A stretch of 64,000 bases of DNA from Massilia soli. Lineage in GTDB: Bacteria; Pseudomonadota; Gammaproteobacteria; Burkholderiales; Burkholderiaceae_D. The DNA is taken from positions 372,001-436,000 of the forward strand of contig NZ_JAFBIL020000004.1 in the NCBI RefSeq assembly GCF_016809835.1, given 5' to 3'. Position 1 is the first letter of the stretch. Each line of letters starts with the position of its first letter. The position numbers and the translations under genes were made by a program. Under the pieces are notes generated by a model. The model saw only the letters and a program-made list of their open reading frames with translations, was not told where the DNA came from and ran no database searches. Shown in pieces: positions 10,911 through 26,179 of the stretch.

Positions 10911-11075
10911 ATGCCCGACATGCACCACTATCCCCAGCCGCTCCCCGACGGCACCGTCTACACCTGCCCGATCCATCCGGAAATACGCCACGCCGGGCCG
11001 GGCGTGTGTCCGCAATGCGGGCGGGTGCTTGAGCCCATGCTCAACGGCGCGGATGTCATCGGCCGCCCGGTTTGA
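10911..11075 (+). CDS. small heavy-metal-binding-domain protein
   Basis: 54 residues from ATG 10911 (ATG 10920 also possible). It contains the short motif [10 protein letters not shown]-x-x-G-P-G-x-C-P-x-C-G-x-x-L-E-P, which is the heavy metal-binding domain found at the N-terminus of copper P-type ATPases and CusB-like proteins. Here it stands alone. The Cys/His pattern suggests copper or zinc binding. No transporter follows. There is no strong ribosome binding site, so expression is uncertain. Confidence 0.7.
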
Positions 11076-11116
11076 CTGCTCCTGTATACTGTCGCATCCT
11101 GTCTTCAATATTGCCG

Positions 11117-11395
11117 ATGTCAGCCAGTGCAAACCAGGTCAGCTGCCGTGCCGGATGCGGAGCGTGCTGCACCGCTCCTTCGATTACCTCCCCGATTCCC
11201 GGCATGCCCGACGGGAAGCCCGCTGGCGTGCGCTGCATCCAGCTGACGGACACGAACGGTTGCGCAATCTTCGGCCACCCGGACCGGCCGGCGTTTTGCG
11301 CCGGCCTTCAAGCGTCGGCAGACATGTGCGGTACGTCGCGCGAACACGCGATCGCATGGCTGACTGACCTTGAACGGGCGACCGCGCCTACTTAG
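11117..11395 (+). CDS. YkgJ family cysteine-cluster protein
   Basis: 92 residues from ATG 11117; an upstream GTG-type extension overlapping the previous gene is less likely. The pattern C-R-x-G-C-G-A-C-C near the N-terminus, then G-V-R-C-x-x-L, G-C-x-I-F and F-C-x-G, is that of the YkgJ/CxxCxxCC family, thought to bind zinc or an iron-sulfur cluster. The function is unknown. Its last 8 bases overlap the end of the convergent small membrane protein gene. Confidence 0.85.
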
Positions 11396-11594
11396 GCGGC
11401 GCCTCATCCAGCGGGACAGGGCCGCTCAGCCCTTTGCGTTTCTTCTTCTTGACCACTTCAGTTTGCTCCTGGGTCGGCCGCAATGCCGGCGGCGGCGCGA
11501 CCGGGAGCGGGAATCCGAGAAACACCATCACGAAGAAAATCGGCAGCAGCAGGTAGAACAGCGGCCGTCTCCAGTTCAGTTTTTGTTTCAGCAT
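11388..11594 (-). CDS. small single-pass membrane protein, unknown function
   Basis: 68 residues from ATG 11594 (a GTG at 11603 is an alternative). One hydrophobic segment, [17 protein letters not shown], is followed by a proline-rich stretch and a basic K-K-K-K-R-K cluster. I do not recognise a family. Convergent with and overlapping the YkgJ gene by 8 bases. Confidence 0.6.
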
Positions 11595-11624
11595 TGCCAA
11601 CACATGGGGGCAATGCCGGACTCA

Positions 11625-12503
11625 TCAAGGCGTGCGCGGCGTCTCGTTGACGAAGCTGTCCACGGCGTCGAGCGTCGGCGCCAGCCCGCGTAACGGCGCC
11701 GCCATCGAGGCCACCAGCGTCGTGTGGGTGACTCCACCGTAATACAACTCGGTGACGGCCACGCCAGTGCTGCGCAGTTTTGCTGCGAGGCGCCCGGTGT
11801 TGTCGGCAGGATTAACCAGGCTGTCGCTGGACGCGGCTATCAGCAGCGCCGGCGGCGAGGTCGTGCCGACATGGTTGACGGGCTGGGAACCCGGCGGCGT
11901 GTTGGGATGATGGAAGACCGGCCGCGTATCCTTGTTGACGATCGGGAGGAAATCATACGGCCCGGCCAGCCCGATCCAGCCGCGCAGCGCGGCGGTCTTC
12001 ATGCCCGACTTTGCCAGGTAGCTCTCGTCCAGCGCCACCATCGCGGCGTTGTACGCGCCGGCGCTGTGTCCCATCACGAACAGGCGCGCCGGGTCGCCGC
12101 CATAACGGGCGATCTCGCGCGCTGCCCACGCCACCGCCAGGGCCGAGTCGTCGAGGAAGTCGGGGTAGCGCACCTCGGGGTACAGCCGGTAATCGGGGAT
12201 CACGGCGACGATGCCGCGCGACGCCAGGGCCCGCCCAACGAAAGCGTAGTCGGCGCGCTCGCCCTTGTTCCAGTTGCCGCCATAGAAGAACACCACCACC
12301 GGCGCGCCAGTTGCCCCGCCATTCGGCACATAGATATCGAGCTTGTTGCGAGGGCCGCTGCCATAGGCGACGCCGGCGGTGGCGGTGGACGCGCCCGCCG
12401 GTGACAGCGCGTTCAGCGCCTTGAGCGGCGAGCACGCCGCCAGTCCGCCTAGCAGCAACACCAGGCCGCCAACCGCATATACAGGAAATCTTCTCGCCAT
12501 CAT
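11625..12503 (-). CDS. alpha/beta hydrolase, putative lipoprotein esterase
   Basis: 292 residues. The N-terminus has a hydrophobic segment ending in a lipobox L-A-A-C, so the protein is probably a lipoprotein. The hydrolase domain has the nucleophile elbow G-H-S-A-G, an oxyanion-type F-F-Y-G-G-N-W in place of H-G-G-x-W, and candidate acid and base residues in the last third (S-S-D-S and T-H-T). It resembles the BD-FAE/carboxylesterase group acting on small acyl esters. The substrate is unknown. It lies 30 bases upstream of the small membrane protein gene on the same strand, and the two may be co-transcribed. Confidence 0.87.
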   Translation of the reverse strand: MMARRFPVYAVGGLVLLLGGLAACSPLKALNALSPAGASTATAGVAYGSGPRNKLDIYVPNGGATGAPVVVFFYGGNWNKGERADYAFVGRALASRGIVAVIPDYRLYPEVRYPDFLDDSALAVAWAAREIARYGGDPARLFVMGHSAGAYNAAMVALDESYLAKSGMKTAALRGWIGLAGPYDFLPIVNKDTRPVFHHPNTPPGSQPVNHVGTTSPPALLIAASSDSLVNPADNTGRLAAKLRSTGVAVTELYYGGVTHTTLVASMAAPLRGLAPTLDAVDSFVNETPRTP

Positions 12504-12778
12504 CAGCCTCGCCGCCTAAAAATCGTGTAATTGATTATATAGATTGCAATAAAACGGCGAGCACAGCACGTCACAAGGCTTCTCCGGCGTTGATTCATCG
12601 TCAATCCCGGGCCGGCGCTTGACCATACAATCACAAGGTTGAGAATGCGGCGGGACATGCGTACCGTTGTTGCCGTTGACCCATAGCCCGGAGGCCAGTC
12701 GTGGTAAGCTTCGACCCCGCACCGTGACGCCTTCCGGTCTTGACTCTCTCAACACAGACGTACGTTTTCGCCGAATAC

Positions 12779-13612
12779 ATGGATATCATCATCGCGGTAA
12801 AAGCCATTCTCATGGGCGTGGTGGAGGGGTTGACAGAATTTCTGCCAATTTCTTCCACCGGCCACCTGATTCTGGCGGGCAGCTTGCTCAACTTTACTGA
12901 TGCCAAGGCGAAAGTGTTTGAAATCGTGATCCAGGCCGGCGCCATCCTCGCCGTGTGCTGGGAGTACAGGGCCCGTATCGTGTCGATTTTCAGCGGCATC
13001 ACCCATGATCGGCAGGCACAGCGATTCGTGCTGAATGTCTTTGTGGCTTTCCTGCCCCTGGCGCTGCTCGGCCTGATCTTCGGCAGCGCAATCAAGGCCG
13101 CCCTGTTTTCGCCGGTGCCGGTCGCACTGGCCTTCATCATCGGCGGCCTCATCATCTTGTGGGTAGAGCGCCACCACAAGCACAATCCGCCGGCGGTGCG
13201 CTTCGAGAGCGTGGACGACATGAGCATGGCCGACGCCCTCAAGGTCGGCATTGCGCAGGCGGCCGCGCTGATTCCGGGCACCAGCCGCTCTGGCGCGACC
13301 ATCATCGGCGCGATGGCGTTCGGCCTGCCGCGCCGCGTCGCTACCGAGTTCTCGTTCTTCCTCGCGATTCCCACCCTGATGCTGGCGACCGTGTACTCGC
13401 TGATCAAGGAGCGCGGCATCCTCACGCTGGACGACCTGCCGATGTTCACGCTCGGCTCGATCTCGGCCTTCATTTCCGCATTCATGTGCGTTCGCTGGCT
13501 GCTGCGCTACATCAGCACCCATGACTTCACGGTGTTCGCCTGGTACCGCATCGTGTTCGGGCTGATCGTGCTCGCCAGCTCGCATTACGGGTGGATCGTT
13601 TGGGTGCACTAG
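12779..13612 (+). CDS. uppP: undecaprenyl-diphosphate phosphatase
   Basis: 277 residues from ATG 12779, close to the 273 of E. coli. The two family signatures are [14 protein letters not shown] near the N-terminus and P-G-T-S-R-S-G-A-T in the second half. Multiple hydrophobic helices span the inner membrane. The enzyme recycles the undecaprenyl lipid carrier for peptidoglycan and O-antigen synthesis and gives bacitracin tolerance. The recQ start codon follows its stop by only two bases, so recQ is probably co-transcribed. Confidence 0.97.
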
Positions 13613-13614
13613 AC

Positions 13615-15435
13615 ATGAATCCTGCCATCAGCGCACGCGCCCTCGAACAGCTGCAAACCGTTTTCGGCTACCCTGCCTTCCGCGGCCAGCAGGCCGAGAT
13701 CGTCGAACACGTCAGCAGCGGCGGCGACGCGCTGGTGCTGATGCCTACCGGCGGCGGCAAGTCGCTGTGCTACCAGATTCCCGCACTGCTGCGCGACGGC
13801 GTCGGCGTCGTGGTGTCCCCGCTGATCGCGCTGATGCAGGACCAGGTCGACGCGCTGGCCGAAGTCGGCGTGCGCGCCGCCTTCCTGAACTCGACCCAGA
13901 CGTTTGAAGAATCGATGCGCATCGAACGGCTGGTGCGCACCGGCGAGATTGACCTGGTCTACGTTGCGCCAGAGCGCCTCATGACGCAGCGCTGCCTCGA
14001 CCTGTTCGACGCGTCGAAGATCGCGCTGTTCGCGATCGATGAAGCGCACTGCGTATCGCAATGGGGCCATGACTTCCGCCCCGAGTACATCCGCCTGTCG
14101 ATCCTGCACGAACGCTTCCCGGACGTGCCGCGCATCGCGCTGACCGCCACCGCCGACCCGCAAACCCGAGCCGAAATCGCGATGCGGCTGCAGCTCGACG
14201 ACGCGCGCCAGTTCGTCTCGTCGTTCGACCGTCCGAACATCCGCTACCAGATCGTCGAGAAGGACAACGGCCGCAAGCAGCTGCTCGACTTCATCACCGC
14301 CGAACATGGCGGCGACTGCGGCATTGTCTACTGCCTGTCGCGCAAGAAGGTCGAAGAGACCGCCGAATTCCTGAACGAGAACGGGGTACGCGCGATGCCG
14401 TACCACGCCGGCATGGACCACACGAAGCGCGCCGCCAACCAGGCCAAGTTCCTGCGCGAAGAGAACATGGTGATGGTCGCGACCATCGCTTTCGGCATGG
14501 GCATCGACAAGCCGGACGTGCGCTTCGTCTGCCACCTTGACCTCCCGAAAAGCATCGAAGGCTACTACCAGGAGACCGGGCGCGGAGGCCGCGACGGCAT
14601 GCCGGCCAGCGCCTGGATGGCGTACGGCTTGCAGGACGTGGTGCTGCAGCGCCGGATGATCGACGAATCCGAAGCCGACGAAACGTTCAAGCGGGTGCTG
14701 TCGATGAAGCTCGACGCCATGCTCGGACTGTGCGAAACGCTAACCTGCCGGCGCGTGCGCCTGCTCGACTACTTCGGCGAACCTTCCGGCCCGTGCGGCA
14801 ATTGCGACACCTGCCTGATACCGCCGGTGTCGTTCGACGGCACGGTGCCGGTGCAAAAGCTGCTGTCGACGATCTACCGGGTCGACCAGCGGTTCGCAGG
14901 CGGCCACGTCATCGACGTGCTGCGCGGGGTGGAGTCGGACCGCATCAAGCAGTGGCACCACGACTCGCTGTCGGTGTACGGCATCGGCAGCGAACGCACC
15001 GAAGCGGAGTGGCGAGCGATCCTGCGCCAGGCGATCGCGCTCGGGCTGATCACGGTCGACCATGACTCATACAGCTCGCTCAAGCTCACCGACGCCGCGC
15101 GTCCGGTGCTCAAGGGCGGGCAGAAGGTGCAGCTGCGCCAATACGTCAAGCCTGCCAAGCAAAAGCGCGCGCCATCGGCCTCGAAAGGCTACGTCGAAAG
15201 CGAGCTGTCGAAATCGGAACAAGAGATTTTCGACCGCCTGCGCTCGTGGCGCATGGGTACGGCGCGCGAGCACAACGTGCCGGCGTACGTGATCTTTGTG
15301 GATGCGACCTTGCGCGAGATCGCCAAGGCCAAACCGCGCTCGCTGGACGACCTGCGCGGCGTCAGCGGCGTGGGCGAGAAGAAGCTCGCGTCGTATGGTG
15401 AAGAGATTGTCGCCTTGATTGGCGAGATGATGTAA
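13615..15435 (+). CDS. recQ: ATP-dependent DNA helicase RecQ
   Basis: 606 residues from ATG 13615. Helicase motif I is T-G-G-G-K-S, motif II is D-E-A-H with the following aromatic-rich C-V-S-Q-W-G-H-D-F-R-P loop, and motif VI is Q-E-T-G-R-G-G-R-D-G. The zinc site includes C-G-N-C-D-T-C, and the winged-helix (RQC) and C-terminal HRDC domains (L-R-G-V-S-G-V-G-E-K-K) are complete. RecQ unwinds DNA in a 3' to 5' direction in RecF-type recombination and at stalled forks. Length matches the family. Confidence 0.97.
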   Translation: MNPAISARALEQLQTVFGYPAFRGQQAEIVEHVSSGGDALVLMPTGGGKSLCYQIPALLRDGVGVVVSPLIALMQDQVDALAEVGVRAAFLNSTQTFEESMRIERLVRTGEIDLVYVAPERLMTQRCLDLFDASKIALFAIDEAHCVSQWGHDFRPEYIRLSILHERFPDVPRIALTATADPQTRAEIAMRLQLDDARQFVSSFDRPNIRYQIVEKDNGRKQLLDFITAEHGGDCGIVYCLSRKKVEETAEFLNENGVRAMPYHAGMDHTKRAANQAKFLREENMVMVATIAFGMGIDKPDVRFVCHLDLPKSIEGYYQETGRGGRDGMPASAWMAYGLQDVVLQRRMIDESEADETFKRVLSMKLDAMLGLCETLTCRRVRLLDYFGEPSGPCGNCDTCLIPPVSFDGTVPVQKLLSTIYRVDQRFAGGHVIDVLRGVESDRIKQWHHDSLSVYGIGSERTEAEWRAILRQAIALGLITVDHDSYSSLKLTDAARPVLKGGQKVQLRQYVKPAKQKRAPSASKGYVESELSKSEQEIFDRLRSWRMGTAREHNVPAYVIFVDATLREIAKAKPRSLDDLRGVSGVGEKKLASYGEEIVALIGEMM

Positions 15436-15550
15436 TTCGGCGGATGACGCGCTTCGCGCTCTTCCGCCCTACGAAACCCGCGGTCGATTTCGCAAAAAAA
15501 AACCACTGGCGACTGCGTAGGGCGGACAAGCGCGAAGCGCGCCTCCGCGC
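15436..15550. repeat. family B palindromic repeat pair between recQ and trmB
   Basis: A unit starting TTCGGCGGATGACGCGCTTC and ending CCGCCCTACG (15436-15473) faces an inverted, slightly diverged copy (CGTAGGGCGG... at 15516-15548). The first unit is identical over 38 bases to that at 45072. It may help terminate both convergent genes. Confidence 0.85.
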
Positions 15551-15566
15551 GACACGCGGCCGCGAT

Positions 15567-16286
15567 CTACTTTTTAACGAACACCAAATCCCACACCCCG
15601 TGCCCCAGCTTCAGGCCACGGTTCTCAAACTTGGTTAGCGGACGATACGCCGGCTGCGGCGCATACCCTTCGGCGGTATTCTGCAGCAGCTGCTCGGCGC
15701 CCAGCACCTCCAGCATCTGAACCGCATAGTCTTCCCAGTCGGTCGCGCAGTGCAGATAACCGCCCGGCGCCAGCTTCTGCGCCAGCAGCGTCACAAACGG
15801 CCCCTGGATCAAACGGCGCTTGTTATGCCGCGCCTTGTGCCACGGATCCGGGAAGAACACGTGCACGCCTGCCAGCGAACCGTCAGGGATCATCTGGTTC
15901 AGCACCTCCACCGCATCGTGCTGGATCAGGCGCAGGTTGGTGATGCCCTGCTCGCCGATCTGCTTGAGCAGGCTGCCCACGCCAGGCGTGTGCACTTCAA
16001 CACCGATAAAATCCTTCTCCGGCATCGCACGCGCGATATGCGACGTGGTGTCGCCCATGCCGAAGCCAATCTCCAGCACCACTGGCGCCTTGCGGCCAAA
16101 CGCCTGCTCGTAATCGAGCGGCGCCTTGGCGTACTCGATCAGGAACTTCGGGCCCAGTTCTTCCAGCGCGCGCGCCTGTGCCACCGACAGGCGGCCAGCA
16201 CGTGTGACGAAGCTGCGGATGCGGTGTTCGGTTGGGTCGTAGAGCATCGGCCGGTTTGGGCCGGTTGGTGGGGTATCAGAGGACAT
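15567..16286 (-). CDS. trmB: tRNA (guanine-46-N7)-methyltransferase
   Basis: 239 residues from ATG 16286 (a TTG nine bases upstream is possible). SAM motif I is [10 protein letters not shown], and the TrmB signature F-F-P-D-P-W-H-K-x-R-H-x-K-R-R-L is intact, as are the C-terminal T-x-F-E residues. The enzyme makes m7G46 in the tRNA variable loop. It begins 33 bases after the CHAT gene's stop on the same strand; whether it is read from that operon is unclear. Confidence 0.97.
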
Positions 16287-16319
16287 GGGATGCAAAATTG
16301 ACGGACTGCGGAAGCGGCA

Positions 16320-18410
16320 TTATAGCTTACCCAAACAGTCGGGCAGGTCGGCCGCGGCCGACGACCCGGCCCGCGCCGTGAGCAGTTCGCCCAGCTGCTT
16401 CGCCGCCCGCAGCGTGGCGGTGCCATCCTCCGCGCACACCGCCTTCTGGTACCACTCGATTGCCTTGTCGTCGTATCCTGCACCCGCGTAGGCGTAGCCG
16501 AAGCCGTCGGCAATCGAACCGATGCCTCCCCACAGTGGCCCGAATTCGCGGTCGAGATACTGCAGCCTGGCCAGCAGCACCTCGCGCTGGACGCTACCGA
16601 TTTTGCTCTGCACTGCCAGGGTTTCGAGCGCGATGGCGAGCGATACTGGCGAGGCGAGGTCGCTGAACTCTTCGTTCAACGGCACCGCCAGGCGCGATGC
16701 CGTGTCGTTCCGGCGCATCGCGCGCCAGCGCCAGTCCGGGTCGCCGTAGCACTGATACGCGGCCCAGGTTGTCGATTCAGGGTGGGCATTCCAGGCAGCG
16801 GCGCGGGCGATGCCGACCGCCTCGATAAAGCGCGAGCCGTTCAGCAGCGCGACGTAGAAAGCGGTTGCAAACACTTCGGCCGCATCGTCAGTGACCGCCC
16901 AGCCCGCGGCAACCACGCACCGCACGCCGATCCGGATCAGCGACTCGGCGACATTCGCGGCGAACTGGGTGCGGTCGTAGGGCTGCAAGATGGCGGCGGG
17001 ATCGGCGCTCGCGGTATGGCAGCAGTTGAGGAACACCAGGTCGGGAATGCTGCGCATGGCGTTGATCTCGTTCGCGCCGAGGAAGGTGTTGTCGCCCGAT
17101 AGGACCACGCCGCCGTGCGGTCCCGGCTCGCCGTGGCCGGCGACATGCACGATGCGGTACGGGTCCTTGAGCAGCGCGATCAGGATCGCCTGCGCGTCAT
17201 TCTCCTCGGCGCGCAGAGTGACCTGCCCGGGTTCGAGGCCGCTGCCGGGCCGGGTCAGCGTCTGCGCGACCGCGATCGCCTCGCGCCGTGCCCCCGGCAG
17301 CGGCGGATACAGCGGCGACGATGTTTGCGGATCGCCGATGATCAGCACCTTGTCGCCGACGCTGGCCGGCCGCAGGCTGGCGCGAAATTCCTCCAGCTGC
17401 ATCTTGCGGACCAGTTTGCTGCGGACGGCCCAGGGGCGCTTGTCGGCGGCATCGCTTTCCAGGCTCGTATCAAGCAGTTCCCACGGAATGCCGGCGGTAG
17501 TGGCATCGAGTTCCATGACCAGTTCAATGGAGCCGCTCAGGAAGGGTTCCATGTCGATCGGGATCAGCAGATCGAACAGCGTGCGCCCGATGTCGGGATC
17601 GATTGCCGGGTCGTTCGACGCCTTCGACACCAGTTCCCTGACCAGGGTGGCCTGTGCGCGGTGCGCGTGTACCTCCGCACGCGCGCGCCGGGTGTCGAGC
17701 GTATAGGCGATACCCGGGTGATCCGCGTCGGGGCCGGCCTGCCGCAGCGCGCTGATGAAATCATAGCTGGTGCCGCGGTAGCCGGAATCGGGCGTGCGCC
17801 GCAACGCCCCCGGTCCGAACTGGATTTTGCCAACCAGCTGCAGCAACGTGCGGTCGGCCTGCTGCTGCATCTGCAGCGCATGCCACGCGTCGGTTGCGCG
17901 CTCGAGATACAGTTCGACCAGCGTCAGCTGGCGCAGCCTGGGCCAGCCGTCGACGTGCTCCAGCTTGGTGTTCGCCTCGTGCGCGGCCTGCACGATGGCC
18001 AGCGCCGCGCTGCCGGCACTGATGCCGCTGCCCCCGCTGCCGACCAGCGTGGCCGAAAGCGAAAAATCGGCGGGCGGCTTGCCTGCGGACCGTTCGGACA
18101 GGCGCTGTGCGTACGCCAGGATGGCCTGGCGAATGGTGTAGACAAGATCAGCGGTGCGCATGTCGCCTTCGTCGCCGAGGCCTGCGACGACCACTGCCGA
18201 CAGGCACGCGCCTGCGCACGTGTTCTGGAAAACCTGATGCGACCCCGTTGCGCTGGGATACAACCCGGCATTCAGGCTTCGGCTCATCCGTTCGTCGAGC
18301 AGCGCATCGACGGCCGCTTCCGCGCCGGTCAGCGTGGTTGAGCGGTAATGTCCGACCAGCAGGGCTTGCCCGGTAAAGCGCAGGTCGGCGTTGAGGACGA
18401 TGACTTCCAT
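16320..18410 (-). CDS. CHAT-domain caspase-like protease with macro-like N-terminus and TPR tail
   Basis: 696 residues. The CHAT (caspase-HetF associated with TPR) protease core covers about residues 280-565. The predicted catalytic dyad is His426 in V-H-V-A-G-H-G and Cys464 in F-L-N-C-C-H-T, and the domain ends in the usual Y-G-D-P-D-W-R. Residues 1 to about 150 (V-V-V-A-G-L-G-D then a helix) recall the N-terminal macro-like domain of M17 aminopeptidases; this is my reading of the fold, not a search result. Residues around 630-660 form one TPR-like hairpin. It starts 12 bases after the alpha/beta hydrolase stop, making a tight operon. No signal peptide. The target is unknown; a role in conflict or programmed response is inference. 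Confidence 0.88.
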   Translation of the reverse strand: MEVIVLNADLRFTGQALLVGHYRSTTLTGAEAAVDALLDERMSRSLNAGLYPSATGSHQVFQNTCAGACLSAVVVAGLGDEGDMRTADLVYTIRQAILAYAQRLSERSAGKPPADFSLSATLVGSGGSGISAGSAALAIVQAAHEANTKLEHVDGWPRLRQLTLVELYLERATDAWHALQMQQQADRTLLQLVGKIQFGPGALRRTPDSGYRGTSYDFISALRQAGPDADHPGIAYTLDTRRARAEVHAHRAQATLVRELVSKASNDPAIDPDIGRTLFDLLIPIDMEPFLSGSIELVMELDATTAGIPWELLDTSLESDAADKRPWAVRSKLVRKMQLEEFRASLRPASVGDKVLIIGDPQTSSPLYPPLPGARREAIAVAQTLTRPGSGLEPGQVTLRAEENDAQAILIALLKDPYRIVHVAGHGEPGPHGGVVLSGDNTFLGANEINAMRSIPDLVFLNCCHTASADPAAILQPYDRTQFAANVAESLIRIGVRCVVAAGWAVTDDAAEVFATAFYVALLNGSRFIEAVGIARAAAWNAHPESTTWAAYQCYGDPDWRWRAMRRNDTASRLAVPLNEEFSDLASPVSLAIALETLAVQSKIGSVQREVLLARLQYLDREFGPLWGGIGSIADGFGYAYAGAGYDDKAIEWYQKAVCAEDGTATLRAAKQLGELLTARAGSSAAADLPDCLGKL

Positions 18411-18422
18411 TGGTTTCCCTGT

Positions 18423-19277
18423 TTAGGGCGCAATCAGCGCATCATGAATCCGCCTGGCGACTTCCTTATCGCTCAGGTAGCCAGCGATACCATGACGGTT
18501 TTCGGTGAAATTTTCCACGGAGGTCATGTTCTCGATGGGCGGGAACACGGCGAAGTGCTCTGATGTAAGCGGATACAGCGCAACAACGTCGCGCTCATCC
18601 ATGGCATTAAACCAGCGCGCTGCCGCCGCCGGATGCGACACCGGCTGCAATTTGCGCTTGACCGCGCGAATCGCCAATGGCGACCCGAGCGTGACAAAAA
18701 GCGGCACCCTCAGCTGGGCGCTCTGCAGCACGTTGTAGGCGATGACGGTGCCCAGCGAATGGCTGACGACCACCGCCTCGCTGCCCGGCACAAAGGCCGC
18801 GCGCACGCCGTCGTCCATTACGTTGCGCAGGTCCTTGCGGTACAGGTACTGGAAGACGTCGTTGGTAAATAACGCCACGCCGGCGGCGCTGGCAAACGGA
18901 ACGGTCTTGTCGAGGACGCTTAGGAAGGCCTGGACCCAGCCCCAGTTCAGCGGTCCCCTCTGCCTGCCAGGGTCATCCGGCATGCCAATGGCGGCTTTTA
19001 GTTCGGCAAGGTACTCGGTGAAGAATTCTTCTTCAGGCGAGGACGGCGCGACGCCACGCACGACGATGTCAACCGCGTCGTCAAGGCTCGATCCTTTGAC
19101 GATCTGGTCAAGCGTGTCGCCGTAGTATGGAAACCTGATCTCGTCGTCGGCGACAGGCAAGGTCAGGCCACTTTTCGCCAGCCCTGCTTTCAGCGCGATG
19201 ATCCACTCTTGTTTCAGCGCGGCGGCATCTTTGCCGTGCTGCGCGCGACCGTGGACGAACACCAGATGTCGTTTCAT
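18423..19277 (-). CDS. alpha/beta hydrolase partnered with CHAT protease
   Basis: 284 residues from ATG 19277, chosen because M-K-R-H-L-V-F-V-H-G starts the first strand and oxyanion H-G motif of the fold directly. The nucleophile is predicted as Ser174 in S-H-S-L-G (a variant of G-x-S-x-G), with Asp227 or Asp230 and His262 as candidate triad partners. There is no signal peptide. A hydrophobic stretch around residues 125-140 could be a lid or membrane-contacting helix. Lipase or esterase activity is likely but unproven. It lies 13 bases after the DUF4019 stop and 12 bases before the CHAT start, so all three are almost certainly one transcript. Confidence 0.85.
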   Translation of the reverse strand: MKRHLVFVHGRAQHGKDAAALKQEWIIALKAGLAKSGLTLPVADDEIRFPYYGDTLDQIVKGSSLDDAVDIVVRGVAPSSPEEEFFTEYLAELKAAIGMPDDPGRQRGPLNWGWVQAFLSVLDKTVPFASAAGVALFTNDVFQYLYRKDLRNVMDDGVRAAFVPGSEAVVVSHSLGTVIAYNVLQSAQLRVPLFVTLGSPLAIRAVKRKLQPVSHPAAAARWFNAMDERDVVALYPLTSEHFAVFPPIENMTSVENFTENRHGIAGYLSDKEVARRIHDALIAP

Positions 19278-19290
19278 TGAGTGCCTTTTG

Positions 19291-19710
19291 TCAACGGATG
19301 CTGTATGCACCCACTTTCCAACTGCCCTGCGCATCCTTGATCGGCGTGACCGTTTCGACCGCGCTTACCTTGTTTTCAAACCGCGTCTCATACTCAAGTA
19401 CAACTGTTTGCCCGGCGACCAGCTCCGGAAGGGTTTCCGTGTAGCTGGCCAGCTTTAATCTCCGCGCAAGCACGGCGCCAAGCGGCGCGCGCAGCGCACG
19501 GGTGCGCGCCTCCCAGGTCTGCCGGGGAACGGCGCGCTGTAGCTGCACAGCAGCCTGGTCCCAGCTGGCGCCGTACTGAGCGGAGTCGAGCAGGTCAAGC
19601 CAGGCGACTGCGGCCTCCTGGCCTTTGTGCACGGCACTGGCGCGCTCTGCGCTGGCAACGGGAACGATCGACATGCTGGCAACGAGGATGGCTGCATGGA
19701 TAGTGCGCAT
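19291..19710 (-). CDS. DUF4019 secreted protein
   Basis: 139 residues with a signal peptide ending S-V-A-S-A in the first 22 residues or so. The pattern A-V-x-W-L-x-L-L-D followed by Y-x-x-S-W-D-Q-A-A and the C-terminal W-K-V-G-A-Y is that of DUF4019, a small exported domain of unknown function. A good ribosome binding site (GGGAGG) precedes the ATG at 19710. It is the first gene of the operon that continues into the alpha/beta hydrolase and CHAT genes; its export sets it apart from the two cytosolic-looking partners. Confidence 0.82.
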   Translation of the reverse strand: MRTIHAAILVASMSIVPVASAERASAVHKGQEAAVAWLDLLDSAQYGASWDQAAVQLQRAVPRQTWEARTRALRAPLGAVLARRLKLASYTETLPELVAGQTVVLEYETRFENKVSAVETVTPIKDAQGSWKVGAYSIR

Positions 19711-19745
19711 ATCGGTTGCCTCCCATTGAAAAGCAGGACGTTTTA

Positions 19746-19751
19746 ATTATA
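19746..19751 (-). promoter_or_regulatory. -10 element of the DUF4019-hydrolase-CHAT operon
   Basis: A perfect TATAAT on the minus strand 36 bases upstream of the DUF4019 start. No good -35 is seen at the usual spacing, so an activator may be needed. Confidence 0.4.
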
Positions 19752-19912
19752 GTCCGGGCAATTCCAAGGCGCCGTTCAGCTCCAGGGGCCCCATGTCTTC
19801 CCAGGGCCGGCCAGCGGCCGGCCTGAAGGCGCAAGCTTCGGAACCGGGTCTTTTCACATGAGGATCTGCGCTGCGGGAATGACACTGAAACGTCTTGAAT
19901 GCCGGAACCGGC

Positions 19913-19986
19913 TGGAGCGGGTGAAGGGAATCGAACCCTCGTCGTAAGCTTGGGAAGCTTCTGCTCTACCATTGAGCTACACCCGC
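19913..19986 (-). tRNA. tRNA-Gly (CCC anticodon)
   Basis: On the minus strand the 74-base gene folds as a cloverleaf. The acceptor stem starts GCGGGTG and pairs with CACCCGC, the D arm is GCTC/GAGC, and the anticodon loop is TTCCCAA giving anticodon CCC. The T arm contains GGTTCGATTCC and CCA is encoded at the 3' end. The outermost anticodon-stem pair (G27-A43) is mismatched. CCC with the acceptor sequence identifies glycine. Confidence 0.95.
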
Positions 19987-20106
19987 GGACACCGCATTCT
20001 ACTTGGGTTCGGCCACCTGATACAAATTTCAACGCATCCGCGGCTGAGCCGGCCGCTCCATGCCTTTCGGCAACCTGGTCATAGCTTTTTCAATCACACC
20101 GATTAA

Positions 20107-20140
20107 TACAACCAATGAGGAGTCGGCTCGGATTGGTGTA
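20107..20140. promoter_or_regulatory. inverted repeat upstream of ahpC, possible redox-regulator site
   Basis: TACAACCAAT (20107-20116) is mirrored with one extra base by ATTGGTGTA (20132-20140), 70 bases before the ahpC start. The position fits an activator site such as OxyR, but the ATAG-N7-CTAT pattern of OxyR sites is not clearly present, so the regulator is unassigned. Confidence 0.35.
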
Positions 20141-20210
20141 TCATGTTTTCAATGAGTTCTTCTCATTCGATAGTTTTTATTAACCGACACACAGCTACGA
20201 GGACCTTCCC

Positions 20211-20774
20211 ATGTCTCTGATCAACACTCAAGTTCCAGCTTTCAAAACCCAAGCTTTCCACAACGGCAAATTCGTCGAAGTCTCGGACGAAAACCTCAAA
20301 GGCAAGTGGTCGGTCATCATCTTCATGCCTGCCGCGTTCACCTTCAACTGCCCAACCGAAGTCGAAGATGCAGCTGACAACTATGCAGAGTTCCAGAAGG
20401 CCGGTGCCGAGGTGTACATCGTTACCACCGACACCCACTTCTCGCACAAAGTCTGGCACGAGACCTCGCCAGCCGTTGGCAAAGCCCAGTTCCCGCTGGT
20501 CGGCGACCCAACCCACGCACTGACCCGCGCATTCGGCGTGCACATCGAAGAAGAAGGCCTGGCACTGCGCGGCACCTTCATCGTCAACCCGGACGGCGTC
20601 ATCAAGACCATGGAAGTCCATGACAACGCCATCGCGCGCGACGTCAAGGAAACCCTGCGCAAGCTGAAGGCTGCCCAGTTCGTTGCTGCGAACCCAGGCC
20701 AGGTTTGCCCTGCCAAGTGGAACGAAGGCCAGAAGACCCTGACCCCATCGCTCGACCTGGTCGGCAAGATCTAA
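20211..20774 (+). CDS. ahpC: alkyl hydroperoxide reductase subunit C (peroxiredoxin)
   Basis: 187 residues, the same length and numbering as E. coli AhpC. The peroxidatic Cys47 lies in F-N-C-P-T-E (F-V-C-P-T-E is more usual) and the resolving Cys166 in V-C-P-A-K-W. It reduces hydrogen peroxide, organic peroxides and peroxynitrite and is re-reduced by AhpF. The ribosome binding site CGAGGA at 20198-20203 fits the start. ahpF follows 102 bases downstream. Codon use is strongly biased, as expected for an abundant protein. Confidence 0.97.
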   Translation: MSLINTQVPAFKTQAFHNGKFVEVSDENLKGKWSVIIFMPAAFTFNCPTEVEDAADNYAEFQKAGAEVYIVTTDTHFSHKVWHETSPAVGKAQFPLVGDPTHALTRAFGVHIEEEGLALRGTFIVNPDGVIKTMEVHDNAIARDVKETLRKLKAAQFVAANPGQVCPAKWNEGQKTLTPSLDLVGKI

Positions 20775-20876
20775 ATTGTGACTGCTGAAGGGCGCGCGCC
20801 TTGCCGCCCTTCATCGCCGGGCCGCTCAGCGGCCCAGCAGTTGAAACTGCAAGGCGCTTACTTTACGGATATCGAC

Positions 20877-22472
20877 ATGCTTGACGCCACCTTAAAAACG
20901 CAATTGCAGGCCTATTTGCAGAACCTGCGCGCACCGATCACGCTCATCGCAACGCTGGACGACAGCGCCAAGAGCGCAGAGCTGCGTGAGCTGTTGGCCG
21001 AGATCGCCAGCCTGTCCGACAAAGTCAGCGTTGACGAATCGGGTACCGACGCCCGTTCGCCGTCGTTCGTGATCGCCAAGCAAGGCGAGACCCGCGGCGT
21101 GCGCTTTGCCGCGATTCCACTGGGCCACGAGTTCACCTCACTGGTGCTGGCCCTGCTGTGGACCGGCGGCCATCCGCCAAAAGTGGAAGCCGACGTGCTT
21201 GAACAGATCATGTCCCTGGACGGAGGCAATTTTGAGGTGTACATGTCCCTCTCTTGCCATAACTGCCCGGACGTCGTTCAGGCTGCCTCGCTGATGGCAA
21301 TCTACAACCCGAATATCAATACCGTGATCATCGATGGCGGTATGTATCAAGACGAAGTTGAAACCCGCCAGGTGATGGCGGTGCCGATGGTGTTCAAGGA
21401 CGACACCCTGTTCGGTTCCGGCCGCATGACGCTGGAAGAAATCGTCGCCAAGCTGGACGTCAACTCGGCCGACCGCGAAGCGACCAAGCTGAACGAGAAG
21501 GCGCCGTTCGACGTGCTGATCGTCGGCGGCGGCCCTGCCGGCGCGGCGGCTGCGGTATACGCGGCGCGCAAAGGCATCCGTGTCGGTGTGGCGGCAGAGC
21601 GCTTCGGCGGCCAGACCAATGACACCATGGCGATCGAGAACTACATCTCGGTGCTGGAGACCGACGGCCCGAAATTCGCCATGGCGCTGGAAGCCCAGGT
21701 GCGCCATTACGATGTCGACATCATGAACATGCAGCGTGCTTCGCGCATCGTTCCGGCACCAACGCCGGGCGGCCTGGTCGCCGTGCACATGGAAAACGGC
21801 GGCGTGCTGCATTCGCGCAGCGTGATCGTCTCCACCGGCGCGCGCTGGAGGAATGTCAACGTGCCGGGCGAGGCGGAGTACAAGAACAAGGGCGTGGCGT
21901 ACTGCCCTCACTGCGACGGCCCGCTGTTCAAGGGCAAGCGCGTTGCGGTAATTGGTGGCGGTAACTCCGGCATCGAAGCCGCGATCGACCTGGCCGGCCT
22001 CGTCCAGCATGTCACGGTGATCGAATTTGCCGATGCGCTCAAGGCCGACGCGGTGCTGGTAAACAAGCTGCGCAGCCTGAACAACGTGACGGTGCACGTC
22101 AATGCGCAGACCACGGAAATCACCGGCGACGGCCAGAAGGTCAATGGCATCAGCTACAAAGACCGCGTGAGCAACGAGATTCACCACGTGGGCCTGGAAG
22201 GCGTGTTCGTGCAAATCGGCCTGGTGCCAAACACCGAGTTCCTGAAGGGGACCTTGGAGCTGAGCAAATTCGGCGAAATCGTCGTCGATGCCAAGTGCCA
22301 CACCAACCTGCCGGGCGTGTTTGCAGCCGGTGACGTGACGACCGTGCCTTACAAGCAGATCGTGATCGCTGCGGGCGAGGGTTCCAAGGCTGCGCTGAGC
22401 GCGTTCGATTATCTGATCCGCCAGCCGGTCGACGTGCCGGCCGAGTCGGTCGAAGAAGCAGTAGCGGCGTAG
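20877..22472 (+). CDS. ahpF: alkyl hydroperoxide reductase subunit F
   Basis: 531 residues from ATG 20877; the frame is open further upstream but [10 protein letters not shown] aligns with the known AhpF N-terminus. The N-terminal double-thioredoxin domain carries the C-H-N-C disulfide (Cys127/Cys130). The flavoprotein part has the FAD glycine motif G-G-G-P-A-G, the NADH motif G-G-G-N-S-G and the redox pair C-P-H-C (Cys343/Cys346). AhpF passes electrons from NADH to AhpC. It ends just before a family A palindrome that separates it from the convergent LytTR regulator gene. Confidence 0.97.
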
Positions 22473-22480
22473 TTCTTCCA

Positions 22481-22553
22481 CGTCGTTCCCGCGCAGGCGG
22501 GAATCCATGCTGAGCATACACGCTATGGGTTCCCGCTTTCGCGGGAACGACGG
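22481..22553. repeat. family A REP-like inverted pair
   Basis: CGTCGTTCCCGCGCAGGCGG at 22481-22500 faces CGCGGGAACGACGG ending at 22553. The whole forms a long hairpin between the convergent ahpF and response regulator genes. Confidence 0.88.
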
Positions 22554-22566
22554 TTATTGCCGCCGT

Positions 22567-23316
22567 TTAGTCCCGGAACAGGTGGTTGAAGGTCCGGCTC
22601 ACTGGCAGTTTTTCGTCACTGCCGCGCAGCAGCACCTGGAGCCGCTCGGCGTCGATGCGTTCAGCGGCGGCGATGGCGCTGACATTGACCATCGTACAGC
22701 GATGGATCTGCCAGAACTGCGCCGGGTCCAGGCCGCTCATCAAATCCTTCAGGGGAATCCGTACCAGCGCCTCCGAGCCCGCCAGCACGACCCGCGTGTA
22801 CTTGGCGTCCGACTGGAAAAACAGCACCTCGTCGACATCGATCAGGCGAATCTGCTTGCCAACCGTCGCTTTGATCCATTTCATCCTCTCGCGTTTCGGC
22901 TCCGGGATCGCGGTCTTCAGCTGGCGCAGGATATCGCCCAAGTCGACCGGCGCCGCACCGAGCTTGCCGCGCAGCCGCGCGATGGCGCGTGCCAGCCGGT
23001 CCGCTTGCACCGGTTTGAGCAGGTAATCGACGACGCCCGCATCGAACGCGTCGACCGCGTACTGGTCGTAGGCAGTCACAAAAACGATATGCGCCACTTT
23101 GCCGATGCGCTCGGCCACTTCCAGGCCGGACATGCCCGGCATGCGGATATCGAGGAACACGACCTCGGGTTCATGTTCCAGAAAACCATCCCATGCGTCA
23201 TTGCCGTTCTCCGCCACCAGCACCACCTCGGCTTCAGGCCAGGCCTCCCCAAGCATCCCCAGCAGCCGTTCGCGCATCAGCGGTTCATCTTCCGCAATCA
23301 TGATTCTTGTTTTCAT
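22567..23316 (-). CDS. LytTR-family response regulator
   Basis: 249 residues. The receiver domain has E-D-E-P at the N-terminus, the phospho-acceptor Asp in V-F-L-D-I-R-M-P-G-M, and the L-L-K-P switch lysine. The C-terminal LytTR domain shows I-D-V-D-E-V-L-F-F-Q-S-D-A-K-Y and F-W-Q-I-H-R-C-T-M-V-N-V. Its start overlaps the stop of the kinase gene by four bases, so the pair is translationally coupled. Paralogous to the regulator at 3034-3741. The DNA target is unknown. Confidence 0.93.
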   Translation of the reverse strand: MKTRIMIAEDEPLMRERLLGMLGEAWPEAEVVLVAENGNDAWDGFLEHEPEVVFLDIRMPGMSGLEVAERIGKVAHIVFVTAYDQYAVDAFDAGVVDYLLKPVQADRLARAIARLRGKLGAAPVDLGDILRQLKTAIPEPKRERMKWIKATVGKQIRLIDVDEVLFFQSDAKYTRVVLAGSEALVRIPLKDLMSGLDPAQFWQIHRCTMVNVSAIAAAERIDAERLQVLLRGSDEKLPVSRTFNHLFRD

Positions 23317-24542
23317 GCTGTTTTCTGTTCGGGTGGGTGGGGGATGACAATTTCCGCCGTAATGCCAGCGCCATCGAGATTGTCGGAGAGCGTCAAGCTG
23401 GCCGCTTCCCCGTGCACCAGCTGCAAGCGGTGCCGCACGTTCTCGAGCCCGACACCGGCGCCCGGCGAGCTGCTCATGCCGGCGCCGCTATCGACAACGC
23501 GGATCACCACATTGGCGCCTGCTTGCACCGCCGACACGTGCACGTCGCCGCCGCGCAGAGTCGGTTCGATGCCATGCTTGATCGCATTTTCGACCAGCGT
23601 GAGCAGGATCATGCTTGGCATGCTGACCGCTTCCAGCGCCTCGGGCAGGTCCAGCCTGTAGCGCAGGCGGGCGCCAAGGCGCGGCTGCATGACTTGCAGG
23701 TAGGCGTCGGCCAGCTTGAACTCCTCGCTCAAGCGCGCTTGATCGCTGCGCATCTCGGTCAGGCTGGCGCGCAGGAAGGCGATCAGGTTGGCCGTCAGGC
23801 TGGCGGCCTCGGGTGCGCGGTGTTCGGCCAGCTGCTGCACGGCGCCGAGCGTATTAAACAGAAAATGCGGTTCGATCTGCGCGCGCAGCAGGCGCAGCTG
23901 CGATTCGCTCAACTCGCGCGCCATCCGCTCGCGTTCAGCTTCAAGCTGTAACTGCAGTGTCAGGGCTTCGTAATGGCGGTTTTGGAAAGCACCAATGATA
24001 ACCAGCGGAACACCGACCAGCATCATCGCGCCGAGCGTTGCCAGTACAAGCCTGCGCGGGAGATCGCCGAGAATGACATCGAGCGACTTGTCGCCATCCG
24101 CATACGAGAGGACCGCACCGGCCACGATACCGGCCATCGCCCACAGGACAATGCGCAGAAGGACCCGCGGTTTGTTGCTTGCAATCTTGCGGTAGTTGAA
24201 CCAGACCGAGATCAGGGTCATCGCGACCGTGAATCCGATCAGGTTGGCCATGATCACAATGTACGGCAACGATCTTGGGGATGGAAACAGCACATGCACC
24301 AGCAGACCAGCGGCGCTGAAAGCGAGCATCAGCTTGGCCAGCGCAATCCACAGACGGCGGCCGCGGAAGGTGACGGAAAAGTCGCGCAGCTGCTGGCGCT
24401 CGATTTGTGACAATTCCCCGATCTTCTGGGCGGCATAGCGGCGATATCCCGGCGCCAACGTATCGGCGACCCTCGGATCGTCGAGTACATTAATTTGTTC
24501 CTGTTCCCAGTCCGTCCACCACCGCGCGATTCGTTTCAGCAT
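23313..24542 (-). CDS. LytS/YehU-type sensor histidine kinase
   Basis: 409 residues. The first 80 residues are soluble and polar. Then come four hydrophobic segments between roughly residues 75 and 190, a short coiled coil (L-Q-L-E-A-E-R-E-R-M-A), and the phosphoacceptor motif I-E-P-H-F-L-F-N-T-L. The HATPase part contains E-N-A-I-K-H-G, D-S-G-A-G and G-V-G-L-E-N-V. There is no recognisable periplasmic ligand domain, so sensing is probably by the membrane region. It forms a two-gene operon with the LytTR regulator. Confidence 0.93.
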   Translation of the reverse strand: MLKRIARWWTDWEQEQINVLDDPRVADTLAPGYRRYAAQKIGELSQIERQQLRDFSVTFRGRRLWIALAKLMLAFSAAGLLVHVLFPSPRSLPYIVIMANLIGFTVAMTLISVWFNYRKIASNKPRVLLRIVLWAMAGIVAGAVLSYADGDKSLDVILGDLPRRLVLATLGAMMLVGVPLVIIGAFQNRHYEALTLQLQLEAERERMARELSESQLRLLRAQIEPHFLFNTLGAVQQLAEHRAPEAASLTANLIAFLRASLTEMRSDQARLSEEFKLADAYLQVMQPRLGARLRYRLDLPEALEAVSMPSMILLTLVENAIKHGIEPTLRGGDVHVSAVQAGANVVIRVVDSGAGMSSSPGAGVGLENVRHRLQLVHGEAASLTLSDNLDGAGITAEIVIPHPPEQKTA

Positions 24543-24661
24543 GCCGCTCCCCTGTGGCCTTTAATATAAGGCAATGAGGGAAGTCTAGGGTAGTGCTGGC
24601 GGTCAAAAAAGAGAAAGGTGACGAAGCACGAGTCCAGGGATGCGAAATACGAATCGCGGTA

Positions 24662-26179
24662 TCAGGCGGCCGGCGGGGCAGCGGACAACAGGGCCACGGC
24701 CTGCCGGAATCCGGCCACCATCGCCGCGAAGGCCTGGGCCTTGGCGTCGTCACCGGGAACCCGCAGCACGTAACTTGGATGATAGATGGCGACGATCCAC
24801 CTGCCCTCGTGCATGAACGGCTCGGCCATCGCGTCCTTCAGCGTCGCATGGGCGTCGCCCGTGACCGCCTTGAGCGCGGTACTGCCCATGGCGACGATGA
24901 CGTCGGGGCCAACCAGCCTCAGTTCGCGTTCGAGCCAGTAGCTGCACGCCTCGACCTCGCGCTGCGCCGGGGTTTTGTGGAGGCGGCGCTTGCCGCGCGG
25001 TTCCCATTTAAAGTGTTTGACGGCATTGGTGAGATACACCTTGCGCCGGTCGAGTTCCGCATCCGCCATCGCAAGGTCGAGGAGCTTGCCGGCCGGGCCG
25101 ACAAACGGTTCGCCGGCCAGGTCTTCCTGGTCGCCGGGCTGTTCGCCGACCAGCATGATGCGGGCGCGCTTCGGCCCGGCGCCATCGACCGCCTGGGTGG
25201 CGTTCTTCCACAAGTCGCAGCGGCGGCACTGGTCGAGCGACGTCGGCGCGTCGCGCTGCGGCTGCGCCTTGCTGGCGGCAATCGGGATCGCGGTGCCGGC
25301 GCGCTGCCCCACGCTGTGGGTCTGGCCGACCTTGCGCGCGCCGGCGGCCGCCTGCGTCACCATCTCCGGAACGATCGCGCCTTCCGGCAAGTTTTTCCAG
25401 AAACGTGAGGGGATATGCGAATGCAGCAGGTCGGCGTTGAGCCGTGCCGGGTTGAAGATGCTGCGGTAATAGGTCAGCCACAAGGCTTCGCCGGCGTCAT
25501 CGATGTCTTCCGGGCCGCGCATCAGCGGGCCGGTGGTGTGCAGGTTGGCGCCGTCCCACATGACACTGGCATCGGGGGTGGCGATCATCCAGCTCACCCG
25601 GCCCATGCGGCTGGCGAAGTGGCGTGCAACTTGCGGCAGCACATCGTGGCTCGGCTCGAACCAGGCCACAAATCGCGGCGGGCCAGCATCTTCGCGACGT
25701 TCGCGGAACCGGATGTAGGCGTGCATGTCGTGTTCTTCGCGGTGCACCGCCTTGACCATTGAATGCAGTTTCGCGCCGTCCTGGTCGGCTGCCGAGATCA
25801 CGTCCTTTTCGCCCTGGCTCCAGCGCCACAGCACCAGGTACAGGAATGCCCAGCGGTTCGGCACGCGGCAGCAGGCCGCGGTTTGCAGCATGTCCATCAG
25901 CTCGCGCGAGACCCTGACCGTGCTGGCCGCATCGCCGTGCGGCGCCTCGCCGGCCTGGCCCGTGCCCGCCGGTTCCTCGTCGTCGTCAAGGCACGCGACC
26001 GGGTTCGAAAACAGGTCGGCGTCATCCTTGCTGGTGACCCATTGAACCGCGTGCGGTTCGACCTTGTGCGCCAGCAGGTCGCGCGCCGCATCGCGCCACT
26101 GGCCGAAGGAGTTGACCAGCACCGGTTGGCCGGCCGCCACCGCGGCCGCCGCGCTTACGCGGCCTGGAGTTCCGTCCAT
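24662..26179 (-). CDS. UdgX family uracil-DNA-binding protein with N-terminal DUF4130 domain
   Basis: 505 residues from ATG 26179; the longer open frame upstream is only the shadow of the radical SAM gene. Residues 1 to about 270 form the DUF4130-type domain usually fused to or beside UdgX. The uracil-DNA glycosylase fold follows, with C-x-x-C at 318-321, motif G-E-Q-P-G-D-Q-E-D at 345-353, the UdgX-specific basic loop K-R-R-L-H at 397-401 and H-P-S-Y at 467-470. In mycobacterial UdgX the His of this loop (K-R-R-I-H there) bonds covalently to the abasic sugar after uracil removal; His401 is the equivalent. It overlaps the radical SAM gene by 25 bases and shares its SOS promoter. Confidence 0.93.
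   Translation of the reverse strand: MDGTPGRVSAAAAVAAGQPVLVNSFGQWRDAARDLLAHKVEPHAVQWVTSKDDADLFSNPVACLDDDEEPAGTGQAGEAPHGDAASTVRVSRELMDMLQTAACCRVPNRWAFLYLVLWRWSQGEKDVISAADQDGAKLHSMVKAVHREEHDMHAYIRFRERREDAGPPRFVAWFEPSHDVLPQVARHFASRMGRVSWMIATPDASVMWDGANLHTTGPLMRGPEDIDDAGEALWLTYYRSIFNPARLNADLLHSHIPSRFWKNLPEGAIVPEMVTQAAAGARKVGQTHSVGQRAGTAIPIAASKAQPQRDAPTSLDQCRRCDLWKNATQAVDGAGPKRARIMLVGEQPGDQEDLAGEPFVGPAGKLLDLAMADAELDRRKVYLTNAVKHFKWEPRGKRRLHKTPAQREVEACSYWLERELRLVGPDVIVAMGSTALKAVTGDAHATLKDAMAEPFMHEGRWIVAIYHPSYVLRVPGDDAKAQAFAAMVAGFRQAVALLSAAPPAA

Follow-up and report, generated by a model that had tools for sequence, protein, structure and literature searches.

Recurrent pairing of a lipase-like alpha/beta-hydrolase with a CHAT protease in Massilia soli and its relatives: a candidate mobile conflict module

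Introduction

The gene pair described here encodes an alpha/beta-hydrolase and a CHAT-domain protease and lies on the minus strand of a 64,000-nucleotide stretch of the Massilia soli genome (contig NZ_JAFBIL020000004.1, positions 372,001 to 436,000), which we call the window and to which all coordinates refer. An initial annotation, made from the sequence alone, had joined the two genes with an upstream DUF4019 gene in a candidate undescribed protease-effector system. The word "undescribed" goes too far, since the components are known and the association of caspase-like proteases with alpha/beta-hydrolases is already published for the VMAP-MoxR-vWA ternary systems, whose caspase-family domains always have an alpha/beta-hydrolase neighbour according to Kaur et al. 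2020 (PMC7159879). The resemblance extends to the hydrolase family itself: on a Streptomyces plasmid (locus L164), a member of the family found in the window precedes a VMAP protein (VMAP-M2 1.4e-48, VMAP-C 6.7e-10), followed by an annotated AAA ATPase. On the other hand, the protease of the window is of the CHAT type and its N-terminus is predicted to have a macro fold, the word CHAT has no occurrence in the indexed text of that paper (PMC7159879), and no MoxR, vWA or VMAP gene was recognised on reading the gene list of the window between 10001 and 28000.

The Craspase of type III-E CRISPR systems (Csx29/TPR-CHAT) is likewise a protease with a partner encoded alongside, and it shares the CHAT fold with the window protein (Z 19.6). 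It differs in that the partner in the window is a hydrolase and in its N-terminal domain; moreover, the TPR helices precede the CHAT domain in Craspase and follow it in the window protein. Neither Cas7-11/gRAMP nor Csx30 was recognised on reading the same 18-kb gene list, no search with Cas models or for CRISPR arrays having been made.

Thoeris II (TIR and TM-macro) and Thoeris IV (TIR and caspase-like protease) are comparable in that relatives of the window pair place TIR or SIR2 genes beside a macro-fold, caspase-like protease (PMC12847820, PMC11204291). The difference is that the macro-like domain and the protease are here united in one protein and that a hydrolase is added; furthermore, the gene list holds no TIR gene beside the window pair, which separates it from Thoeris, TIR_2 being found in 8 of 40 neighbours among the relatives. 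Borvo, a defence system that PMC10952713 lists under CHAT, likewise employs such a protease in defence, the likeness being one of description. Finally, the CARD-NLR/LypABC systems, in which a protease and an NLR-like ATPase lead to lysis, recall the hydrolase-CHAT-SIR2-NB-ARC arrangement of loci L092 and L083, but their proteases are trypsin-like, and neither "hydrolase" nor "CHAT" occurs in the main text (PMC13236601).

The open-licence literature, which leaves most subscription papers outside and is thus weak proof that none exists, yielded no publication on a CHAT-hydrolase-NADase system, nor did it yield the macro-fold-CHAT architecture, the two-hydrolase fusion, the version with SIR2-NB-ARC in trans or the linkage to NADases described below.

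Results

The hydrolase and the CHAT protease

The features of the two genes are as follows.

16320..18410, minus strand: CHAT-domain caspase-fold protease, 696 residues (Pfam CHAT 5.6e-31; AlphaFold2 model)
17850..18410, minus strand: N-terminal domain of the CHAT protein, residues 1-187, predicted fold of the leucine aminopeptidase N-domain (LAP-N) or macrodomain type (fold matches, conserved motifs)
17133..17135, minus strand: codon of catalytic His426 (His in 66/66)
17019..17021, minus strand: codon of catalytic Cys464, NCC motif (Cys in 66/66)
16326..16679, minus strand: C-terminal helices (residues 578-695) with which the TPR region begins (AlphaFold2 secondary structure; consensus TPR chain matches)
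18423..19277, minus strand: stand-alone alpha/beta-hydrolase, 284 residues, predicted lipase-like (triad conservation, AlphaFold2 fold matches)
18756..18758, minus strand: codon of nucleophile Ser174 (Ser in 42/42 rows with a residue there)

The assignment of the larger protein to the CHAT family (PF12770), as initially annotated, is borne out by a score of 108.5 bits against a curated cut-off of 24. A pattern-seeded search recovered 64 genome-contig loci encoding CHAT relatives; these, together with the window and locus L083, make up the 66 aligned proteins, and all of them keep the His426/Cys464 dyad, which speaks against a catalytically dead dyad in the relatives. The AlphaFold2 model (predicted local distance difference test, pLDDT, 85.6; predicted template-modelling score 0.62) matches separase, Csx29 and gingipain folds over about residues 211-580 (211-567 for separase and Csx29), with Z 21.6, a root-mean-square deviation (rmsd) of 4.2 and 295 aligned residues for separase, and Z 19.6, rmsd 3.7 and 288 aligned residues for the best Csx29/TPR-CHAT match. 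The N-terminus is predicted to adopt the macrodomain/LAP-N fold: over residues 1-189 it aligns with the aminopeptidase 7y1s (Z 18.4, rmsd 2.5, 163 residues; other LAP entries 16.3-17.1) and with macroH2A1.1, 1zr3 (Z 16.7, rmsd 2.8, 165 residues). Its motifs GHY (20-22) and GLG (77-79) are found in 41/41 rows and GSGG (124-127) in 38-40 of 41; Pfam gives no Macro match up to E 1 and Peptidase_M17_N at just 0.034. The C-terminus of the window protein is shorter than those of its relatives, most of which have a longer TPR region.

The hydrolase was initially described as lipase-like with Ser174 as nucleophile, a description with which the models agree. All its alpha/beta-hydrolase hits in Pfam are sub-threshold (best 0.018), and it is the fold and the Ser-Asp-His triad, found in the model and the alignment respectively, that place it in the alpha/beta-hydrolase superfamily. 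Ser174 lies within a GxSxG-type elbow (SHSLG), and in an alignment of 43 rows, counting those with a residue at the position concerned, 42/42 have Ser174, 42/42 Asp230 and 41/41 His262. The best fold match of the AlphaFold2 model (pLDDT 80.3, built from 9 sequences) is lysosomal phospholipase A2 (Z 12.8, rmsd 3.5, 182 aligned), followed at Z 11.4-12.1 by the DDHD domains of Nir1/Nir2, the thioesterase TesA, LCAT and a Bacillus lipase; these matches suggest a lipase-like enzyme while leaving its substrate unfixed. Relatives of the hydrolase are also found at 10 loci in viral contigs, six of which were used in the structure alignment.

Both genes appear to be under constraint. Between the window and its nearest relative, L091, the ratio of nonsynonymous to synonymous substitutions (dN/dS) is ~0.08 for the hydrolase (dS 1.3) and ~0.13 for the CHAT protein (dS 0.7), which argues that the frames are more than chance and that the two-gene form is kept without an adjacent SIR2 gene.

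Recurrent association by adjacency and by fusion

That hydrolase and CHAT protease belong together, as first proposed, is supported by their recurrent adjacency and fusion across relatives. We examined 43 loci of the stand-alone hydrolase family, namely all 22 found in genomes and 21 of 56 plasmid records. In 35 of them a protease lies next to the hydrolase or is joined to it, and in 8 there is none; the partner is a CHAT protein in 5, a caspase-like protein in 25 (on the opposite strand in L087 and 391 base pairs away in L129) and a trypsin-like protease in 5, one of which (L127) is fused. Twenty-three of the 43 pairings are independent of the profiles built here, being established by Pfam, by record annotation (L127, L130, L169, L171) or by close identity to the window CHAT protein (L002, L003, L083). 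Two of the copies, L149 and L153, are broken. In a control comparison the protease profiles hit 29 of the 83 called genes that are adjacent and 2 of the 331 that are not, a result that is partly circular because the profiles were built from the partner proteases.

The same association is found within single polypeptides. Ahead of the matched CHAT region, 44 of the 66 proteins carry more than 800 residues, 8 carry 300-800 and 14 fewer than 300. In all five long proteins scanned this extension holds two alpha/beta-hydrolase domains, DUF7379 and one of LCAT type, and the proteins further contain CHAT and match TPR-S (below its cut-off in L019 and L008); both GxSxG-type nucleophile elbows are present in 37 of the 44 proteins exceeding 1,700 residues. 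Six of the 14 short proteins begin at a contig end. The surroundings of the eight others are as follows: the stand-alone hydrolase lies beside those of the window, L002, L003 and L083; the neighbour in L024 is another hydrolase, of DUF900 type; in L039 an overlapping upstream frame belongs to the fused family, possibly through a frameshift; and in L046 and L057 the neighbour is hydrolase-like by its GHSFG motif only. These last two had been taken for a lipase half next to a CHAT half, an assignment that we corrected, the upstream protein itself ending in a CHAT-like region after its GHSFG start. We also considered whether the stand-alone hydrolase is a piece broken off the fused protein. This is unsupported, profile comparison with the fused hydrolase domains aligning the nucleophile elbow only (40 and 18 columns, at probabilities of 21% and 72%).

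Other arrangements of these families were seen in passing. In a Streptomyces plasmid (L127, 4921-6909), a single annotated protein consists of a serine-protease region followed by a member of the hydrolase family. The trypsin-type partners of the hydrolase at L088 (7027-8652) and L152 (4286-5977) carry TPR-S, a domain that also ends fused CHAT proteins. Hydrogenophaga loci (L009, L011, L016, L021, L025, L037, L040, L060) present a conserved set of metacaspase, amidase_2-SH3 protein and fused hydrolase-CHAT protein, to which some add a TIR protein and an astacin-like protease.

A patchy and mobile distribution

The initial annotation had called for a search for mobility, and confinement to a core genome would have told against it; the pair is instead patchy and mobile. 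The hydrolase family is rare, being found in 9 of 392 genomes of the bacterial family (1e-8) and 14 of 397 of the phylum (1e-15), together with the 56 plasmid records (1e-5), and the CHAT gene is present in 4 of 17 genomes of the genus, the window genome holding a single match to it. The pair occupies different chromosomal sites among relatives, and CHAT relatives at 29-33% identity are found in 8 plasmid records. As to a location in defence islands, which that annotation also proposed to look for, relatives lie among conflict-type genes, and a PADLOC scan of ten flanking proteins made no island evident at the window.

A two-gene unit inserted behind a resident DUF4019 gene

The surroundings of the pair comprise the following features.

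19291..19710, minus strand: DUF4019 exported-protein gene, co-oriented neighbour judged to lie outside the module (Pfam 3.3e-28; loci of relatives)
19746..19751, minus strand: TATAAT upstream of DUF4019 (sequence read; unsupported by a consensus scan)
19913..19986, minus strand: tRNA-Gly(ccc), which marks the insertion locus (same tRNA in L084, L089, L091 and L092)
15567..16247, minus strand: trmB-type gene, presumed housekeeping neighbour (gene list; PADLOC mad2 1.6e-12 only)

Three complete open frames of 139 (DUF4019), 284 and 696 codons run without change of strand from 19710 to 16320, separated by gaps of 13 and 12 bases exactly as first reported, and are flanked by tRNA-Gly(ccc) and the trmB-type gene. 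The hydrolase start is taken at an internal ATG (19277), which the alignment of relatives supports, the longest frame opening at 19334. Of the expression signals initially cited, GGGAGG ahead of the DUF4019 start and TATAAT at 19751-19746 are indeed present; the promoter is weak evidence, because a consensus scan found none on the minus strand at TATAAT and gave a single hit, on the plus strand, a number close to the 0.7 averaged by shuffled sequences. The names trmB, recQ, ahpC and ahpF used here are those we take these neighbours to bear from their sequences.

The proposal that DUF4019 is part of the system did not survive comparison with relatives. The window and M. agrisoli (L002/L091) share the order DUF4019-hydrolase-CHAT-trmB. 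M. polaris (L003/L092) has the order DUF4019-trmB-hydrolase-CHAT-SIR2/NB-ARC-recQ; in genome G012 (L083), hydrolase, CHAT and SIR2/NB-ARC lie at another site and DUF4019 is unmatched in the whole genome (1e-5); and in genome G005 (L089), DUF4019 adjoins the tRNA-Gly where the pair is absent. DUF4019 was therefore rejected as a component: it is a resident of the tRNA-Gly(ccc)/trmB locus, and the real unit consists of hydrolase and CHAT. The CHAT stop codon falls inside a TATAAT preceding trmB, and the same TATAAT is found before trmB in L092, where DUF4019 and trmB follow each other uninterrupted; this, with the hydrolase starting 13 bases past the DUF4019 stop, argues that the pair was inserted behind DUF4019, from which it is probably transcribed by read-through. 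Since L084, from another genus, carries a caspase-C14 and hydrolase pair adjoining the same tRNA-Gly(ccc), the tRNA region looks like a hotspot.

Further observations concern this region. A 33-base stretch between trmB and recQ (15516-15548), perhaps a repetitive extragenic palindrome-like repeat, has inverted matches at two further places (L091, the same interval). Genes resembling ahpC/ahpF (20211-22472 in the window) occur, in two arrangements, in the CHAT flanks of 11 of 65 gene-called loci (L002, L003, L009, L011, L016, L021, L025, L037, L040, L042, L060), the flank of L001 being too short to judge. Between the ahpC-type gene and tRNA-Gly of M. polaris lies a 635-residue gene of unassigned type (L092, 5454-7361), perhaps another insert.

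NADase-type neighbours of relatives

A scan of 40 close same-strand neighbours returned TIR_2 in 8, amidase_2 in 7, C14 in 4, lytic transglycosylase-type in 2, CHAT in 2, and DUF4062, patatin (a phospholipase, in L062) and GH19 in 1 each; several others are housekeeping-like (MIOX, P450, HDOD) or transposases. DUF4062 is a TIR-like NADase family according to PMC13174449. Across the 65 loci, the next downstream same-strand gene within 300 base pairs is of NADase type in 11 of 31 cases against 8 of 536 other genes, and in 6 of 24 against 7 of 381 when homologous clusters are collapsed (Fisher p 3e-5). This enrichment is partly circular, because these neighbours were themselves used to build the TIR and SIR2 profiles and because the DUF4062 gene (L045) entered the count by hand, neither of which affects the Pfam counts; six of the TIR cases belong to one cluster, mostly Hydrogenophaga. 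A NADase_NGA match in L045, below its cut-off and within a TPR stretch, was left uncounted, unlike the DUF4062 match.

The SIR2-NB-ARC gene follows the pair in two of the four genus genomes carrying it, 52 base pairs 3' of CHAT in L003/L092 and with an 11-base-pair overlap in L083, the latter being one more NADase-type neighbour outside the 11 of 31; none follows in the window or in L002/L091. Its product has GAGIS, TTNFD, KLHG and Walker A motifs, and ThsA is its best PADLOC match (8.3e-41). No NADase-type gene stands beside the window pair in the gene list from 10001 to 28000; tblastn with the SIR2-NB-ARC protein at E 1 disclosed no SIR2 relic inside the window, and the window genome has no match to that protein at 1e-10. 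Elsewhere in that genome there are one TIR_2 match, on another contig, and two SIR2_2 matches (G000:C35:316648-317037, G000:C33:77685-78110 and G000:C34:65575-65973).

Discussion

The model we favour, in which we place a little more belief than doubt, is that hydrolase and macro-fold/CHAT protease constitute a mobile, reduced two-gene protease-lipase conflict module. The pair would have moved horizontally and landed between the resident DUF4019 gene and trmB, being read through from DUF4019. The switch would be the CHAT protease, partnered by the lipase-like hydrolase as enzyme: a trigger, probably infection by a phage or another invader, would activate the protease, which would free the hydrolase, either cleaving it or causing a complex to rearrange, and the freed hydrolase would attack membrane lipids, leading to the arrest or death of the cell. 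Fuller relatives would add an NLR-like SIR2-NB-ARC or a TIR/DUF4062 NADase-type gene, the window copy being a reduced form. We infer the trigger, the direction in which activation runs, the lipid nature of the substrate, the arrest of the cell and the read-through; the pairing and fusion, the intact catalytic residues, the patchy mobile distribution and the conflict-type neighbours of relatives are observed. A protease-controlled or protease-coupled lipase in a conflict system best accounts for the repeated origin of the protease/hydrolase pairing through both fusion and adjacency, and immunity or programmed death is favoured over metabolism because of the mobility, the carriage on plasmids and the TIR, NB-ARC and patatin neighbours. 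The interpretation first given to this locus is thus partly supported.

A number of observations weigh against this model. Pairing reaches 15 of 22 loci in genomes and 20 of 21 in plasmids, the latter being hand-picked, some after a listing had already named a protease. The 8 partnerless hydrolases score weaker against the hydrolase profile, and 7 of them are among the 22 genome loci. Twelve pairings (L085, L086, L087, L129, L149, L150, L161, L163, L164, L165, L168, L170) depend on profiles constructed for this analysis or on visual reading of motifs, L086 and L087 having seeded one of the protease profiles, and Pfam C14 at 0.01 is absent from L087, L129, L149, L161, L164 and L171. As only the nucleophile elbow aligns between stand-alone and fused hydrolases, the fusion supports a functional pairing and not an identity. 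The phage collection holds 2 distant hydrolase records, and a pattern scan of viral contigs gave no CHAT relatives. The distant fused CHAT form is present in 25 genomes of the genus g6 (24 at 31-33% identity); it may be common in that genus and need not be a defence gene. Lastly, no defence island is evident at the window: among ten flanking proteins PADLOC 2.0 matched two, the RecQ-type helicase, hit by models of DpdF and of other helicases, and the TrmB-type protein, hit by mad2, both of which are read as domain kinship, while the CHAT protein matches only SAVED_CHAT (5.5e-6) and the hydrolase and DUF4019 have no match up to E 1.

Could the switch be turned on by a NAD-derived molecule? A SIR2- or TIR-family NADase would produce an ADP-ribose-type signal that binds the macro-fold domain and turns CHAT on, as in Thoeris with a protease-lipase output; the window pair would have its NADase at another place in the genome, or would have lost it. 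The predicted macro/LAP-N fold with its conserved glycine loops, the downstream enrichment of NADase-type genes of differing types (TIR, DUF4062, SIR2-NB-ARC) and the TIR_2 and SIR2_2 matches elsewhere in the window genome make such a trigger attractive, though unproven. Precedents exist in the His-ADP-ribose/TM-macro effector of Thoeris II and the N7-cyclic-ADP-ribose/caspase-like effector of Thoeris IV (PMC12847820). Nevertheless, the best LAP-N match stands 1.7 above the best macrodomain and Pfam detects no Macro domain. Furthermore, binding of ADP-ribose is not known for the LAP N-domain. The window pair lacks an adjacent NADase, 20 of the 31 downstream genes are of other types, the enrichment is partly circular with six TIR cases in one cluster, and the NADases may act as parallel effectors rather than as signal makers. 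We regard this explanation as possible, on the unlikely side, and as rather doubtful the complete circuit in which interchangeable NADases (TIR, DUF4062 or NLR-type SIR2-NB-ARC) signal to the macro-fold/CHAT protease, which then releases a lipase carried in its own polypeptide or encoded by the adjacent gene.

The output might also be other than lipolytic. In a proteolytic cascade modelled on the peptidase pairings of the VMAP systems, the hydrolase would be a regulatory, peptidase or deacylase/thioesterase partner acting upstream of or beside the protease. The constancy of the hydrolase while its partners vary (CHAT, C14, trypsin) and the thioesterase and acyl-protein thioesterases among its fold matches speak for such a cascade; it is opposed by the lipases and phospholipases that come first among these matches, even though Z 10-13 fixes no substrate, by the LCAT-type domains of the fused relatives and by the patatin neighbour in L062, and we judge it unlikely. 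Very unlikely, in our estimation, is a nonfunctional window copy, the decaying remnant of a hydrolase-CHAT-SIR2-NB-ARC system that has lost its sensor and the CHAT C-terminus. The SIR2-NB-ARC gene does follow CHAT in L003/L092 and L083 and not in the window or L002/L091, and the window CHAT protein is shorter, its last codons and stop being formed by DNA ahead of trmB, but both genes are full-length with intact catalytic residues, and the low dN/dS was obtained against another genome without the SIR2 gene. As for a three-gene system in which the exported DUF4019 protein would be a working part, the common strand and tight spacing in the window and L002 are set against DUF4019 standing alone in L089, trmB intervening in L092 and the L083 pair in a genome without a DUF4019 match; it is largely refuted already, and we hold it to be extremely improbable.

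In conclusion, the recurrent pairing, in relatives often beside NAD-destroying, immune-type genes, suggests a self-destruct or anti-virus switch and not a metabolic operon. If the reading of a protease-lipase conflict module is true, it would join caspase-fold proteases, membrane lipases and NAD-based signalling, immune themes that have mostly been studied separately. It would also provide a clean two-gene system in which activation of a lipase by a CHAT protease could be examined, along with a naturally occurring range of fused and split forms, with and without a NADase, for probing how it happens. Finally, it would point to a function for the alpha/beta-hydrolase found beside the caspase-like proteases of the VMAP conflict systems.

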